64,000 nt of DNA from Bacteroidales bacterium (GTDB lineage: Bacteria > Bacteroidota > Bacteroidia > Bacteroidales > Marinilabiliaceae), in assembly GCA_024401365.1 (NCBI GenBank), contig JAKSLE010000004.1, forward strand, positions 1 through 64,000, given 5' to 3'. The notes below the pieces were generated by a model. That model worked only from the letters and a program-made list of their open reading frames with translations, was not told the DNA's origin and did not search any database. Position 1 is the stretch's first letter, and the number at the start of each line of letters is the position of its first letter. Below are positions 2,521 through 31,456 of this stretch, piece after piece. The position numbers and the translations under genes are program-made.

Positions 2521-2556
2521 ACGAGCTCCCATCCGCAGATGAGAGCTCGTTTTGTA
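2521..2556. terminator. Hairpin between convergent genes (bidirectional terminator)
   Basis: ACGAGCTC at 2521-2528 pairs with GAGCTCGT at 2543-2550. T-rich sequence follows on the plus strand, and an A-rich stretch precedes it, giving a T-run on the minus strand. It lies between the FadL-like gene and the convergent plug-protein gene. Confidence 0.7.
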
Positions 2557-2604
2557 TTTACAATACTCTTTTACTCGCCCAAGTCTGAAGAAGCAATGCA
2601 TGTA

Positions 2605-3975
2605 CTAATGGATGAACGCATTAGGCGTTTTAAGCGTATTATGCTTCTTGTATGCCAACACTCGATAGTACCCAGTAGATGGATCGCGATAATAGACACA
2701 TATGTGATAATCATTCTCGGTCTCAGAAAATGAGGCCTCGGTATTAGTCATATCCACCCTACCTTCGGCATCCACCTCCACTATGCGGTAGTTTGCCAAT
2801 GACTGCTTAACCAGATAGGTGTAATCTTCAAGAACGAAATTGGATTCGCTGGCATTCCACTCCTCTACCCAACCGAACTTATTGCGGTTCATAGGGAATG
2901 GCGCATCATTGAAATCGCCCACTACATACAAACTAGAGTTACGTCCGAACCTATATGCAGGCTCATGGAGATTAATATGTATTATAGAATAATCGGCAGT
3001 AATATCAAAGTTCGTTTTAGGCTCATCGTAATTGTGGATATACTGCAATCCGTTGAAATCCTCATGATACGAGTACCCTAGAGGTACGGTAGCCAAAGGT
3101 ATCTCGGCATGATAATAACCGTCGAACACCGACACTCTGGTATCGCTCAACACGTGACCGCGCAAGCTGCGTGTATCGGCCCATCTCCACTCCGAACCAC
3201 CTTGAAACACCAACGGGTCGGTATATGACATATCGTCGCCACGTACTATGGTAGGATTGTCAAAAAAGAGGAGCGACGACATGTCGTTGTTCTGCCAGGA
3301 ACAGACCGAGATATCGCGCAACGACTTGGAGGAGCCATTGGATAGTCCTTTATGTACCGTAACCGTAAGATCTTGCATACCGTTATTGTTGGTCTTCCTT
3401 ACGCACGACTCAATACCCATCTCATGCTCCGCTATAATGACCGGACGAGTCAATATATGCTCATCGTCGCCCATTGAATATACAGAGATGGTATAATTGC
3501 CCGACACCTTGAATTGGCGGACAGGTACATGTACTTTGTAATGGACATAATCGACAGTCGTATTGAACGACAACATATACTCCGAACAATCGTACTGTTT
3601 TTCAAATCCATCCCAATACTCGAGCGTAAGCATATCATCGGGTTGCCACTCAACATCGCAATGTCGAACCACGAAATAGAGCTGTCGCGAGTCGGCAAAC
3701 AGTTCATCGAAAGACAATAGAATATCTAAATCACTATTAGCATCCAAATCGTAAACATACTGCTGTTTCCACTCCTTCTGAGGGGTTATTCTGACTGTAT
3801 GAACAGACGGAAGTTGATAAAAGAGAGAATCCCAAACGGCAGATCGCGCATAAGAGCAAATCGGCAACACACTGAAACAGAGTAAAAAACAAAAGGTTGC
3901 AATAATTGGCGAGAAAATTTGTCGCCAATTAAAGTTTTTTTGGTCTAATAATTCGTTTTTGACGTTAAGTTTCAT
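2605..3975 (-). CDS. Type IX secretion system plug-domain protein (DUF5103)
   Basis: Proteins with this domain plug the SprA/Sov translocon of the type IX secretion system from the periplasmic side. The N-terminus has a hydrophobic segment (about residues 20-43, ending CSYARSA) consistent with a signal peptide. The start of the mature protein (SVHTVRITPQKEW, then LLSFDEL, then RHCDVEWQPDDM) follows the conserved order of the DUF5103 N-terminal domain, including the HCDxxW motif. The C-terminal half holds a second beta-rich domain (YSIIHINLHEP, YVVGDFND). The length of 456 residues is near the family norm. It stands alone, divergent from nqrA across a 102-base control region. Confidence 0.82.
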   Translation of the reverse strand: MKLNVKNELLDQKNFNWRQIFSPIIATFCFLLCFSVLPICSYARSAVWDSLFYQLPSVHTVRITPQKEWKQQYVYDLDANSDLDILLSFDELFADSRQLYFVVRHCDVEWQPDDMLTLEYWDGFEKQYDCSEYMLSFNTTVDYVHYKVHVPVRQFKVSGNYTISVYSMGDDEHILTRPVIIAEHEMGIESCVRKTNNNGMQDLTVTVHKGLSNGSSKSLRDISVCSWQNNDMSSLLFFDNPTIVRGDDMSYTDPLVFQGGSEWRWADTRSLRGHVLSDTRVSVFDGYYHAEIPLATVPLGYSYHEDFNGLQYIHNYDEPKTNFDITADYSIIHINLHEPAYRFGRNSSLYVVGDFNDAPFPMNRNKFGWVEEWNASESNFVLEDYTYLVKQSLANYRIVEVDAEGRVDMTNTEASFSETENDYHICVYYRDPSTGYYRVLAYKKHNTLKTPNAFIH

Positions 3976-27156: not shown

Positions 27157-27567
27157 TCACCCACAGAGGTTAAGCAACTCAGCCCGATAATCGGAAACGC
27201 TGTCGAAATTGATCCAATAGAACATTTGCTGCTTATAGAAGAGGCGTTGATCCGGCCTTTGGGGATGCAGTTCGCGGAGCTGGTCGCCGTGCTGGAGGAG
27301 CAGTTTATAGTAATAAGACACGGCGGCGCGATAAGGGCCGAGGATGCGATGTTGGTGAGCATAACGACGCCAATGGCGGATACGGTTCCACTGCTGCATA
27401 TCATCCTTCGCCAAGCGCTGAGCATCGGCGAACATATCACGAGCACGACGCTGATTATCAGTCACATGCACCATGATGATATGATATCTCTTACCATATC
27501 GTTTGATATAAAAGCTACGACCATCGATGCGTGCGCGGGAGTCGTCCCTCATGGCTTTTCGAGCCAT
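27157..27567 (-). CDS. Basic conserved-looking protein of unknown function
   Basis: The start at 27567 gives a 136-residue Arg/Lys/Tyr-rich protein (MARKAMRDDSRARIDGRSFYIKRYGKRYH, then RRARDMFADAQRLAKDDMQQWNRIRHWRRYA). The pattern of basic and aromatic residues, with YRAAVSYYYKLLLQHGD, looks like a real folded protein and resembles uncharacterised Bacteroidales proteins I have only a vague memory of. Base composition is GC-richer than the flanks. Overlapping frames on both strands exist but have less protein-like content. Nucleic-acid binding is possible from the charge alone. Confidence 0.55.
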   Translation of the reverse strand: MARKAMRDDSRARIDGRSFYIKRYGKRYHIIMVHVTDNQRRARDMFADAQRLAKDDMQQWNRIRHWRRYAHQHRILGPYRAAVSYYYKLLLQHGDQLRELHPQRPDQRLFYKQQMFYWINFDSVSDYRAELLNLCG

Positions 27568-27744
27568 TGTAATATGTTTATGGAGGATAGATACTACAGC
27601 CATTATCTGTATCATGTGGTATAATGATGTGTACGATGTGCTCAGCAGATAGTTTCGGTTTGAACGTAATTTTTTAAAAATATTTAGCGATAAAGAATAA
27701 CACAGAGACAGTTGTCGTAGTGGCTCATATAATACGACTGTTTT

Positions 27745-27778
27745 TTTGCAATTATAACATGTACATTTAATACATTTG
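27745..27778 (+). promoter_or_regulatory. Probable promoter of the 361-residue unknown
   Basis: TTTG at 27745-27748 and TACATTTG at 27771-27778 with a 22-base spacer, 23 bases before the ATG at 27802. Confidence 0.6.
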
Positions 27779-27801
27779 CAAAGTACTAGTCAACAAAACA
27801 T

Positions 27802-28887
27802 ATGAAAAAAGCGCTACTGACATATATTTTGATTGTGTTAGGCAACATTTGCCATGCTCAAAGGTTCGATTATATAAAACATGACATTGAAGCTTTTTCC
27901 GTGTACGCTTACGGCGATACAGCAAATGGAATAATTCCCATTTACGAAATAATTGCTGTGGACCACAAAGACAGCATAACAGCCCAAAAGATAAACCGCC
28001 AACTACTTGACCATTGGGAACTTAATGACTACAAATCGCCTACAGAAGTGCCTATTGCCATTTTTCGAAACATTGAAGAACTAAGCCCTATACGATCCAT
28101 AGACAACGCCGTTGTTATCAATTATGAAATGTACGACAACACTGGTCTCAACTATACAGATACCCGCTTTTATGACCTTGATACAGGGACAGAACTAAAA
28201 GACACTACTATTCCTACGTATGCCTATTTCACTGAAGACGGTTACATTAAATGGCTCAATGACATGTGGCACGATTACGTTTTCGACTCATTGGACAAAG
28301 AGGGATACTTTAGCCATGGCAGAGAAGGCTATTACATTGACGACATAGAATATTTTGACAGATACAACAATGGCTGTTCACTATTCCACACAAACAACTC
28401 ATGGGAACCAGGTACACTTCACGTAAGCCTTGCAGATTGCTATATCAGATACCATTTATGCTGTTCTCCAAGCTACAGTCACCAATATACGTACGCCGAA
28501 ATAGAGCCACTCCTTTCTGAATTTGGCAAACAAATCCTTGCCCCTTCCTCCGAACCAATGAATGCAGTTGCCCACCTTCGTCACCAGTTATCCTGCCAAC
28601 CACTCATCAAAGAACATCTGTATGCCTATGTTAATCTTGACGGAGAAACTGCCATTATTTCCTTTAACATCAACAACGACAACATAACAGGAACTCTATA
28701 CCTAAAAAACACACCACTTTATCTACTAGAAGGGAAAGTCGCGACCAAATTCTTTCACAAGAACATAACTATAAAAACACTTCAAGGAGAACGTGTCGGT
28801 GTAATAAAAGAGCTTAGCTACAACCGAAAAGAAACCATATTCTACACTCCTCAAAAACATTCATTAAAAATAGAGTACGTTGAATAA
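27802..28887 (+). CDS. Secreted protein of unknown function (361 residues)
   Basis: A signal peptide (MKKALLTYILIVLGNICHAQ) precedes an acidic, Tyr/Asp/Asn-rich mature protein with no motif I can assign. Several Cys residues sit in the middle (NGCSLFH, DCYIRYHLCC). The gene is AT-rich compared with nearby housekeeping genes and has its own promoter. It stands in the patchy stretch between rpmH and the hexuronate genes, next to a relic of the uxaA 3' end, so it may be an acquired gene or the old neighbour of uxaA. Confidence 0.7.
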   Translation: MKKALLTYILIVLGNICHAQRFDYIKHDIEAFSVYAYGDTANGIIPIYEIIAVDHKDSITAQKINRQLLDHWELNDYKSPTEVPIAIFRNIEELSPIRSIDNAVVINYEMYDNTGLNYTDTRFYDLDTGTELKDTTIPTYAYFTEDGYIKWLNDMWHDYVFDSLDKEGYFSHGREGYYIDDIEYFDRYNNGCSLFHTNNSWEPGTLHVSLADCYIRYHLCCSPSYSHQYTYAEIEPLLSEFGKQILAPSSEPMNAVAHLRHQLSCQPLIKEHLYAYVNLDGETAIISFNINNDNITGTLYLKNTPLYLLEGKVATKFFHKNITIKTLQGERVGVIKELSYNRKETIFYTPQKHSLKIEYVE

Positions 28888-28938
28888 ACTGAGAAGATCA
28901 TTCACGTTCAGCGTAGGACCATGCTGGCAAACAAAAAA

Positions 28939-29059
28939 CAGGGGCGAGTCGGCATGACCCATCCCTGCATCAATAAATATTATATGACTACTACCGAGGC
29001 TAATGGAAGCCACCGGAGTGTTTTGTATAAGATTATAATGTAACGCCAGTCTTGAAGAT
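28939..29059 (-). pseudogene. Relic of a uxaA 3' end with its downstream hairpin
   Basis: At 29033-29059 the minus strand reads I-F-K-T-G-V-T-L-stop, the same eight residues that end the intact uxaA, but with synonymous codon differences (ACT for ACC, TTA for TTG). At 28939-28967 lies a diverged copy of the hairpin found just after the intact uxaA (29869-29899). The spacing between stop and hairpin is nearly the same in both places (66 and 60 bases). So this is a colinear duplicate of the gene end, not chance. Confidence 0.75.
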
Positions 29060-29060
29060 T

Positions 29061-29281
29061 ATGAAAAATGTATTGGAGGAATGGGTTGATTGTAATACAA
29101 AAAGCTTGAAATATTTATGGCGTTAAAAGAAAATTTCTGTAATTTGGTCTTCAGTAATCAAAGCGAGAATTGTTTTGTTGGTTTTTAAAGGTACTTAAAT
29201 CTGCAACAATCCTTGCAATTATTGCTATAATAATTGAGTAAAAAATAGATTCGTCGAACTTACATAAATTAATCACAAACG
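29061..29281. other. Short gene-free AT-rich stretch
   Basis: Between the uxaA relic and the DUF4160 gene I see no frame or motif I can support. It is AT-rich and may be decayed coding sequence. Confidence 0.4.
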
Positions 29282-29572
29282 ATGCCCAAGGTATTGCTCT
29301 ACATAACTGCCAAATTATTTTGGATATTCTTGTTCTACAATAAGGATTTCAACGAGAATCGGGCTCATGTTCACGTGGGTAAGCGAGACACACAGAATCT
29401 ATGTAAAATATGGTTGGAACCGAAGGTAGAAATAGCAAAGCTAGGCGACCTCACAGACGCTCAGGGCAAAGAGGTTTTAGCCTTGACTGAGACATACAAA
29501 GACAAGTTGCTTGCCCAATGGAAGAACTTCAAAGAAGGGAAAGCATTACGAATCATTAAAGTTAAGAAATAA
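29282..29572 (+). CDS. DUF4160 domain protein
   Basis: A 96-residue protein with the DUF4160 pattern: MPKVLLY at the start, FLFYNKDFNENRAHVHVGKR (the conserved HxHV) and KIWLEPKVEIA. It ends in a basic Lys-rich tail. DUF4160 genes are often found next to DUF2442 genes, and such pairs have been suspected to be toxin-antitoxin-like, but I know of no proven activity. The stop codon is separated by one base from the start of the DUF2442 gene. Confidence 0.8.
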   Translation: MPKVLLYITAKLFWIFLFYNKDFNENRAHVHVGKRDTQNLCKIWLEPKVEIAKLGDLTDAQGKEVLALTETYKDKLLAQWKNFKEGKALRIIKVKK

Positions 29573-29573
29573 T

Positions 29574-29840
29574 ATGTTCACCAAAGAAGGATATTGGAAT
29601 GTGGTACCACAGATAAAATCTGTGTTGTTCCCAACGCGCGGCAAGTGGCAGGTTGACCTTGTAGATGGTCGTAGTGTTGTCATGCCCATTAGTGCCTTCC
29701 CTTGTCTAAAAAAGGTGCCTGTACGTGAACGTCCGCAATGGTATCTGATGGGAGGTGGTGTGACATGGGATTCATGTCCCGAGGTCATACATGTCGAGCA
29801 GATATTAGGCGATTATCAGAAATATGGTCATGAGGCATAA
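29574..29840 (+). CDS. DUF2442 domain protein
   Basis: An 88-residue protein starting MFTKEGYWNVVPQIKSV. It contains VDLVDGRSVVMPISAFPCL, RPQWYLMGGGVTWDSCPE and the DUF2442 ending with VEQILGDY. The start at 29574 is chosen because it follows the DUF4160 stop after one base and begins where the family begins. Together with DUF4160 it forms a two-gene unit facing the 3' end of uxaA. Confidence 0.85.
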   Translation: MFTKEGYWNVVPQIKSVLFPTRGKWQVDLVDGRSVVMPISAFPCLKKVPVRERPQWYLMGGGVTWDSCPEVIHVEQILGDYQKYGHEA

Positions 29841-29868
29841 TATTAGAAGGGATGAATTTATAATAAGA

Positions 29869-29899
29869 CAGGGACGAGTCGGCAAGACTCATCCCTGTT
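29869..29899. terminator. Hairpin between DUF2442 and uxaA
   Basis: ACAGGGACGAGTC pairs with GACTCATCCCTGT around GGCAA, a 13-bp stem with one mismatch. There is no long T-run on either side, so it may be a weak bidirectional terminator or an RNA-stability element. A diverged copy is at 28939-28967. Confidence 0.6.
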
Positions 29900-29942
29900 C
29901 TCAATAGATATATAACCATGCCCGTGGTATGAAGGTCACGAA

Positions 29943-29953
29943 GGGGGGGGGGG
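29943..29953 (+). repeat. Homopolymer of 11 G
   Basis: An uninterrupted G11 run lies 6 bases downstream of the uxaA stop codon, in the 3' untranslated region. It is absent from the duplicate gene end at 28939-29059. Confidence 0.85.
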
Positions 29954-29959
29954 AGCAGA

Positions 29960-31456
29960 TTACAATGTAACGCCGGTCTTGAAGATAGCTATTTCGCGGT
30001 AGCCCTTCTTCTCGTTATTGACCTTTTCGCCCGAAGCCACACTGATGATATAATCTGCAAATCGCTGATGGACAGCAGCCATAGGCTCATCTTCCACTAA
30101 AACACCTGCATTAAAGTCGATCCATGTCGGCTTATTCTTTGCCAGTGTCGAATTAGTAGAGATTTTCATCGTAGGCACAAAGGTACCGAATGGCGTACCG
30201 CGGCCAGTGGTAAAGAGTATTATCTGACATCCAGCGGCTGCAAGTGCCGTAGCAGCTACTAGGTCGTTGCCTGGAGCCTCAAGAAGATTGAGTCCGCACT
30301 TCTCTATACGGTCGCCATAACGGAGGACAGCGCGAACGATAGACTTACCACACTTCTGGGTACAACCGAGAGCCTTCTCCTCGAGAGTAGAGATACCACC
30401 AGCCTTATTACCTGGCGATGGATTCTCTCCCACCGGCTCTCCATGACTGAGGAAGTAATTCTTGAAGTCGTTGATAAGGGCAACCGTCTCATCAAATCGC
30501 TCCTTATTCTCACAACGATTCATAAGTATTGTCTCTGCACCAAACATCTCTGGCACTTCGGTAAGAACAGAAACTCCACCTTGAGAAACAATAAAATCAG
30601 AGAATACTCCAAGAAGCGGATTGGCTGTGATGCCCGAGAATCCATCAGACCCTCCACACTTAAGGCCTACCTTAAGTTTAGAAAGAGGCACATCTACTCT
30701 GACATCTTTCTTGGCTTGTTCGTATAGCTCGCGGGCTATAGCAAGGCCTGTAGGCACCTCATCGCCTTCAACCTTCTGCGCTACCATGAATTTCACACGC
30801 GACTCATCAAATTCTCCACAGAAATCTCTGAAGACATCGGGCTGATTGTTCTCGCAACCAAGGCCAACAATGAGTATACCTCCAGCATTGGGGTGGTGAA
30901 CCATGTTTCGAAGAACTTTCTTGGTGTTCTCATGGTCTTCGCCCAACTGTGAGCAACCGTAGTTGTGTGGAAATGCTACAATAGCATCTACCCCTTCACC
31001 CCCGTTAGTTTCACTCTTCAGCGCATCAACAATCTGATTTACTATGCCGTTGACACAGCCAACTGTAGGTATGACCCAAATCTCATTACGTACGCCTACA
31101 TTGCCATTCTTACGAAGATAGCCTTTGAATGTCAACTGTTTTTCTGCCGCAGGAAGTTCAACTAATTTAGGCTCGTATGTATAATCGAGCAACCCCGCCA
31201 GATTGGTCTTTATATTTGTATCCGACATCCACTGCCCTTGCTTAGCATCTACTAGGGAATGACCTATCGGATAACCGTATTTAATCACATTCTGCCCCTC
31301 CTTAATATCTACGAGAGCAAATTTGTGACCTACTGGAATATCTTCCACGATAGTGATATTCTCGCCATCTACGACTACCGACTCTCCTTTTGACAGTGCG
31401 CTGATAGCTACAGCCACATTATCGTCAGGATTTATCTTCAAATATTTAGTTGCCAT
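29960..31456 (-). CDS. uxaA: Altronate dehydratase
   Basis: Removes water from D-altronate to give 2-keto-3-deoxygluconate in galacturonate breakdown. The 498-residue protein has an N-terminal SAF domain (about residues 5-80) joined to the larger catalytic UxaA domain, which carries GYLRKNGNVGVRNEIWVIPTVGCVN, KCGGSDGFSGITANP and the Cys-containing EKALGCTQKCGKS stretch. This full-length fused form matches E. coli UxaA. It is the last gene of the leftward hexuronate operon, 152 bases after kdgA. Confidence 0.94.
   Translation of the reverse strand: MATKYLKINPDDNVAVAISALSKGESVVVDGENITIVEDIPVGHKFALVDIKEGQNVIKYGYPIGHSLVDAKQGQWMSDTNIKTNLAGLLDYTYEPKLVELPAAEKQLTFKGYLRKNGNVGVRNEIWVIPTVGCVNGIVNQIVDALKSETNGGEGVDAIVAFPHNYGCSQLGEDHENTKKVLRNMVHHPNAGGILIVGLGCENNQPDVFRDFCGEFDESRVKFMVAQKVEGDEVPTGLAIARELYEQAKKDVRVDVPLSKLKVGLKCGGSDGFSGITANPLLGVFSDFIVSQGGVSVLTEVPEMFGAETILMNRCENKERFDETVALINDFKNYFLSHGEPVGENPSPGNKAGGISTLEEKALGCTQKCGKSIVRAVLRYGDRIEKCGLNLLEAPGNDLVAATALAAAGCQIILFTTGRGTPFGTFVPTMKISTNSTLAKNKPTWIDFNAGVLVEDEPMAAVHQRFADYIISVASGEKVNNEKKGYREIAIFKTGVTL

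Follow-up and report, generated by a model that had tools for sequence, protein, structure and literature searches.

Toxin-antitoxin (TA) modules are scattered over genomes and, to our knowledge, how those lacking a transposase move is an open question. Integrative elements inserted at gene 3' ends duplicate the 3' end of the gene and keep the gene complete. The combination of a DUF4160 and a DUF2442 protein has been described as a functional type II TA system, DhiTA, in Dickeya dadantii and E. coli (PMC8198452) and, in the available part of a report on Thermus, as a plasmid-stabilising 'Persistence-Enhancing Module' whose plasmid yielded no transformants when the second ORF was missing (PMC12724237). 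The same combination is counted among TA systems in a table of a marine survey (PMC12654330). In the available parts of the DhiTA and Thermus descriptions, no relic of a neighbouring gene's end is mentioned.

Two further kinds of described system are of relevance here. In insertion with long target duplication, as related in the available text for the restriction-modification genes of Helicobacter pylori (Nobusato et al., 2000, through PMC1643837) and also cited elsewhere (PMC2654758), a small selfish-type module lies between target repeats and a relative carries the empty allele. Unconventional circularizable structures are, in the portion of the source available, non-transposon modules without a recombinase gene of their own that lie between direct repeats and form circles by recombination of these repeats, those described having resistance genes and long repeats (PMC7843796). 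A literature search of limited extent turned up no account of relic homologous gene ends flanking TA modules.

The locus described here lies within a window of 64,000 nucleotides (the whole stretch of DNA that was analysed) and comprises a DUF4160/DUF2442 pair between an intact uxaA-like gene and the relic of a uxaA 3' end. The pair has the same two domains as DhiTA and the Thermus module, likewise with the toxin-type gene first and the two genes adjacent. As in long target duplication, direct repeats surround the insert, and as in unconventional circularizable structures they enclose a module without a recombinase gene, for which circle formation would be the analogous step. However, the repeat copies differ in the manner of orthologs, mostly by synonymous changes, and at a related locus (L134 in genome G398) the relic is foreign, so that there the two copies do not both come from the recipient's target; in contrast to the long repeats of the circularizable structures, the repeats here are short gene ends. 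Unlike integrative elements, the window locus has no integrase gene inside (apart from the pair, no long ORF is present in the 805 bases that separate the copies), the distance from stop to stop was only 543-1214 bp in the seven loci measured, and the target gene is a different one at each locus. The proposed mechanism resembles both long target duplication and unconventional circularizable structures, with a full fit to neither. The reading preferred here, to which a probability of about one half is given, is that the pair, as a TA module of the DhiTA kind, arrived by horizontal transfer and brought along the 3' end of the gene that it adjoined in the donor (a diverged uxaA), by means of a single crossover.

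The DUF4160/DUF2442 pair

Both members of the pair are encoded on the plus strand and are 4 bases apart. The first ORF (29282-29572) encodes a DUF4160 protein of 96 aa, a putative DhiT-like toxin (PF13711, E 5.5e-13; 49.4 bits against a gathering score of 23), and the second (29577-29840) a DUF2442 protein of 87 aa, a putative antitoxin (PF10387, E 2.8e-6; 27.9 against 23.9 bits). By its domain content the pair would be a TA module of the DhiTA kind, for which we infer toxicity. The DUF4160 protein scored far below the cut-off of the DhiT equivalog (NCBIfam NF048015, toxin_DhiT; 21.5 against 100 bits, E 2.7e-4), and it is a distant DhiT relative, not the equivalog. It gave no match in either the plasmid or the phage collection at the default limit; a canonical DUF4160 protein matched 30 plasmid records. 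None of the four proteins tried with PADLOC gave a match, and the best hits among solved structures (E 0.65 and 0.44) were both unrelated.

Relatives of the window's own subtype (58-59%) were found in two other genomes of 71, at L105, which has a flank repeat of 30 bp, and at L104, which is without such a repeat. In the nearest relative, the gene adjoining L105 is truncated by the end of the contig. Two further DUF4160 loci exist in the genome of the window itself, G000:C34:165157 (L102) and G000:C29:8778 (L110), and a window-like flank repeat was looked for at both and not found. At the latter (2378-2923 of L110), the protein of a neighbouring gene looks by eye similar to that encoded at window positions 27157-27615.

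Two uxaA ends in the window

The intact uxaA-like gene (29960-31456, minus strand) encodes a protein of 498 aa belonging to the altronate/galactarate dehydratase family (GD_AH_C at E 2.2e-99, GD_AH_second and SAF). A relic of its last eight codons and stop was identified by repeat and pattern searches at 29033-29059 of the same strand, with the two ends 927 bases apart. The relic translates as I-F-K-T-G-V-T-L-stop and differs from the intact end by two changes, both of them synonymous, as the first-pass annotation had claimed. It forms part of a direct repeat of 93% identity (D2, 29030-29059 and 29957-29986). The duplicated hairpin which that annotation placed beside both ends was recovered as a second direct repeat of 88% identity (D1), consisting of terminator-like hairpin A on the relic side (28935-28967) and hairpin B 3' of intact uxaA (29865-29897); on the uxaA (minus) strand these fold at -17.5 kcal/mol (z -3.1) and -26.3 kcal/mol (z -7.3), respectively. 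When a gapped alignment was made, D1 and D2 merged into a single homology of ~125 bp between copy A (28935-29059, comprising hairpin, spacer and uxaA end) and copy B (29865-29986, extending into intact uxaA). Its score of 105 compares with a mean of 26 and a maximum of 48 in 1000 shuffles, and the similarity is thus beyond chance, as had been proposed. The spacer alone is weaker, with its local score reached by 10 and its global score by 22 of 2000 shuffles. The two synonymous changes of the window prove little by themselves, because 25% of random changes in that stretch are synonymous.

At its 5' edge the relic breaks off abruptly. Between the copies (29060-29864) the ORFs of at least 50 aa are limited to the pair, one opposite-strand ORF that overlaps it and a version of the DUF2442 frame with a longer start; the family search of this interval covered the pair. 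The spacer that separates hairpin B from the stop of intact uxaA contains, at about 29944-29954, a run of ~11 G that has no counterpart in the relic copy and may be prone to length change.

The exact degenerate pattern of the gene end is present twice in the genome of the window and at most once in each of the other 70 family genomes, being present at all in 18 of the 71, while a reversed control pattern was found in none of these 71. With one mismatch allowed, the genus member G010 has two matches, each at the end of an intact uxaA-like gene. Chance similarity of the two uxaA ends is ruled out by the shuffles together with these counts. When the genome of the window was searched, copy B and copy A matched at E 1.1e-7 (71% identity) and the next match spanned 30 bases, which rules out a repeat dispersed through this genome. 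No relative lacking the pair but carrying both uxaA ends, a pattern that would speak against the first-pass interpretation, was seen in the 15 genus or 71 family genomes searched.

The uxaA locus in related genomes

Two sister MAGs (L020 and L021 in G011 and G012) have a uxaA 91% identical to that of the window, and behind it come, in this order, a different hairpin and the gene corresponding to window 27157-27615; they are without the DUF4160/DUF2442 pair and without a 361-aa gene present in the window (27742-28900). The window hairpins score 11 to 15 against the terminator of these sisters and 33 against each other. As the 361-aa neighbour is missing and the terminator is unlike either copy, the sister loci do not show the native end of the window gene. 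The gene at 27157-27615 has 92.6% DNA identity to the sister genome, compared with a mean of 76% for the aligned blocks of the window and the G011 contig.

The 361-aa gene has no Pfam match and lies within 1159 aligned bases that share 96% DNA identity with G008, at a different place in that genome, although the uxaA proteins of the window and G008 are just 76% identical. This block is a second, separate horizontal insert, so that together with the pair at least two inserts have been received behind uxaA.

Over its last 27 codons the window uxaA shows 7 differences from L020 in 81 bases, compared with 310 in 1410 for the remainder. Relative to L022, a column permutation gave p 0.003, but the terminal segment ranks only 7th of 472 overlapping segments. 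A different origin for the 3' part of uxaA, as raised in the first-pass annotation, is on these figures suggestive only, as is a mosaic gene end with a change of ancestry ~27 codons before the stop. Such a breakpoint would lie outside the nine codons of the relic and would for that reason not be explained by a single crossover within the repeat. It would favour the direction originally proposed, in which the relic is the old end, and would also fit one-ended recombination of linear donor DNA, where a donor piece comprising uxaA end, hairpin and pair crosses over in uxaA and is attached on the other side by a non-homologous join, nine codons ahead of the native stop, leaving the relic as the recipient's own end. 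The abrupt 5' edge of the relic agrees with this, and homology-facilitated illegitimate recombination is described, in the accessible part of the source, for competent bacteria and E. coli conjugation (PMC3240628). It is nonetheless considered unlikely, as it misfits genome G398 (see below), where the relic is foreign and the intact end native.

Relic gene ends beside other TA modules

DUF4160 loci from the genus and order were chosen as the higher-scoring among the matches listed (116 taken, of which 115 had a recognised ORF and 112 had flanks long enough for the test), and HicA loci in the same way (103, 99 and 96, respectively). A recognised DUF2442 partner was present in 83 of these 115 DUF4160 modules. 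One DUF4160 locus was counted twice (L102 lies inside L212) and has no relic. Among these matches, a flank-to-flank alignment score of at least 30 was reached by 18 of 112 DUF4160 modules and 7 of 1367 control positions (Fisher p 5e-16, with Fisher values to be taken as guides only because control positions overlap each other and some contain other mobile genes). The excess was smaller for the HicA modules listed, at 9 of 96 against 8 of 506 own-locus positions. In the subset of loci inspected this broad class is mixed, containing arrays, dispersed repeats and bare terminators: L194, L195, L239, L244, L237 and L131/L233 resemble tandem or dispersed repeats, and L147, L241 and L240 resemble terminators only.

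A strict scan was defined by a copy of a flanking gene's 3' end, stop included, lying across the module with a score of at least 20. Among the matches listed, it found a relic at 5 of 115 DUF4160 modules (L206, L184, L134, L100 and the window) compared with 1 of 2896 control positions, the single match there being AT-rich and located in L195, or with 1 of 605 own-locus positions. Three of the 99 HicA modules listed (L288, L378 and L331) also carried one, against none of 506 own-locus positions (p 0.004); the version of the scan used for HicA and for own-locus positions also takes a changed stop codon, as needed by L288. When the score was lowered to at least 12 the edge was lost (6 of 115 DUF4160 modules against 6 of 2896 control or 7 of 605 own-locus positions). 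The relic scar, which other gut bacteria thus share, marks a minority of modules, ~95% of those scanned being without one, and it is not peculiar to DUF4160/DUF2442, as hicAB modules have it too. L128 seems by eye to have a relic of a flanking gene end, which was missed by the stop-containing scan and is excluded from the count.

The relics match different genes from locus to locus, and that of L100 may derive from the tail of a paralogous gene. Homology stops at the stop codon or within ~17 bases of it at L134, L184, L288, L378 and L331, and continues through the terminator region in the window, L206 and L100. At L139, a 125-bp repeat of 98% identity (1185-1309 and 2636-2760), which starts with TAAC and ends with GTTA and which we take to resemble an integron attC site, encloses a DUF4160/DUF2442 pair and one further gene. 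At L284 a hicAB module, with nothing else, lies between att-like repeats of 110 bp and 97% identity (1154-1263 and 2095-2204), with one copy overlapping the 3'-terminal part of a tRNA-Phe gene (2182-2257).

Repeats at gene 3' ends do look att-like, as at L284, and would be expected as attL and attR if the modules were cargo of integrase-borne islands, the rest of which (integrase included) had been deleted or whose integrase acted in trans. This is considered very improbable, since no long ORF besides the pair lies between the window copies, the stop-to-stop distances are short, and relics matching different genes would require many integrases.

Codon divergence and an empty site

Across the seven ungapped relics (L100, with a gapped alignment, is left out of this count) 30 changed codons were found to be synonymous and 9 non-synonymous, where 8.2 synonymous would be expected at random (p 1e-13). 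L206 and L134 contribute 16 of the 30 and the window contributes 2. This bias indicates that the ends evolved as coding sequence after their separation, in agreement with the first-pass annotation, and the relic and intact ends would accordingly derive from different genomes or paralogous genes and not from a duplication with one freely decaying copy.

An empty site was available for L134. Genome G463, a sister of G398 (94% protein identity over the 408 aa compared), has no DUF4160 pair at this site. The intact gene end of G398 is 97% identical to that of the pairless G463 over 76 bases, being native up to the stop, after which follow a new terminator-like hairpin, the pair and the relic end. 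The relic itself is only 81% identical to G463 and 78% to its own intact neighbour. No donor was found among the other homologous ends compared, the best being 82-83% identical, and two paralog fragments of the same genome, which were among these ends, reached 75% and 69%. Past the relic stop the sequence returns to that of G463 (90.5% over 148 bases). Ancestry switches at the stop codon in both instances, with 13 bases shared there. The intact end of G398 is thus native and the pair and relic are foreign, which fits the exact product of one crossover with a circle made up of donor gene end, terminator and pair. The first-pass suggestion that the old gene end was left behind is contradicted at this locus. 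The foreign-relic direction comes from this one resolved empty site; L206 gives none, because it has no same-genus relative among the genomes compared.

In-place duplication followed by neutral decay is disfavoured as a general explanation by both the 30:9 codon bias and the G398/G463 comparison. Insertion with long target duplication, in which a target of ~125 bp would be copied to both sides by an unknown mechanism and the copies would later diverge in place, has the same anatomy as the H. pylori genes cited above (Nobusato et al., 2000, through PMC1643837). It is considered rather improbable, as decay in place should not favour synonymous changes and as the G398 relic is about equally far from two ends, that of its neighbour and that of G463, which are themselves 97% alike.

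A different insert was observed in G463 about 150 bp further down (L309, G463:C15, about 2555-3308). It contains two small ORFs, of 78 and 137 aa, whose products look by eye like an antitoxin and a PIN-domain toxin, respectively. G398 is empty at that site, and the flanking alignment blocks overlap by ~10 bases.

Proposed route and implications

Most likely, the window pair came together with one of the two uxaA ends. In the preferred reading, horizontal acquisition by a single crossover, a donor gene end and the module would enter as a circle, or loop out of an older repeat-module-repeat structure, and would cross over once with the recipient's orthologous gene end, either close to the stop codon or within the terminator. 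A complete coding end and a terminator would remain with the host gene, with the module landing behind it and breaking nothing, and one of the two orthologous ends would stay as a relic on the far side of the module. We infer the circle, the crossover and the donor. Against the crossover stands the limited homology, which covers 27-90 bases of coding end, in some cases with the terminator added, at 78-96% identity, and by which RecA would be poorly served.

The horizontal reading of the first-pass annotation gains support from the coding-type divergence and from the recurrence of modules beside such relics (in 5 of 115 DUF4160 and 3 of 99 HicA modules listed). Its further suggestion of a mobile module travelling by homologous recombination at a gene end agrees with this recurrence, with the recombination itself still a supposed step. 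A wider proposal, put forward tentatively and regarded as doubtful, is that small TA modules of the Bacteroidales have a recombinase-free mobility, in which a circle or unit carrying the 3' end of a conserved neighbour gene enters another species at the same gene end, through one crossover located at the stop codon or the terminator, and leaves a foreign-end scar. Gene ends would then serve as landing pads, since integration there leaves gene and terminator whole.

The scar is readable, consisting of a homologous gene's final codons in synonymously changed form, and it marks the insertion as horizontal. It tells beside which gene a module lay before, and its occurrence can be tallied from genome to genome. 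With it, strain collections and a recA mutant would serve to test the route, and it hints at a way in which TA modules lacking their own transposase move.
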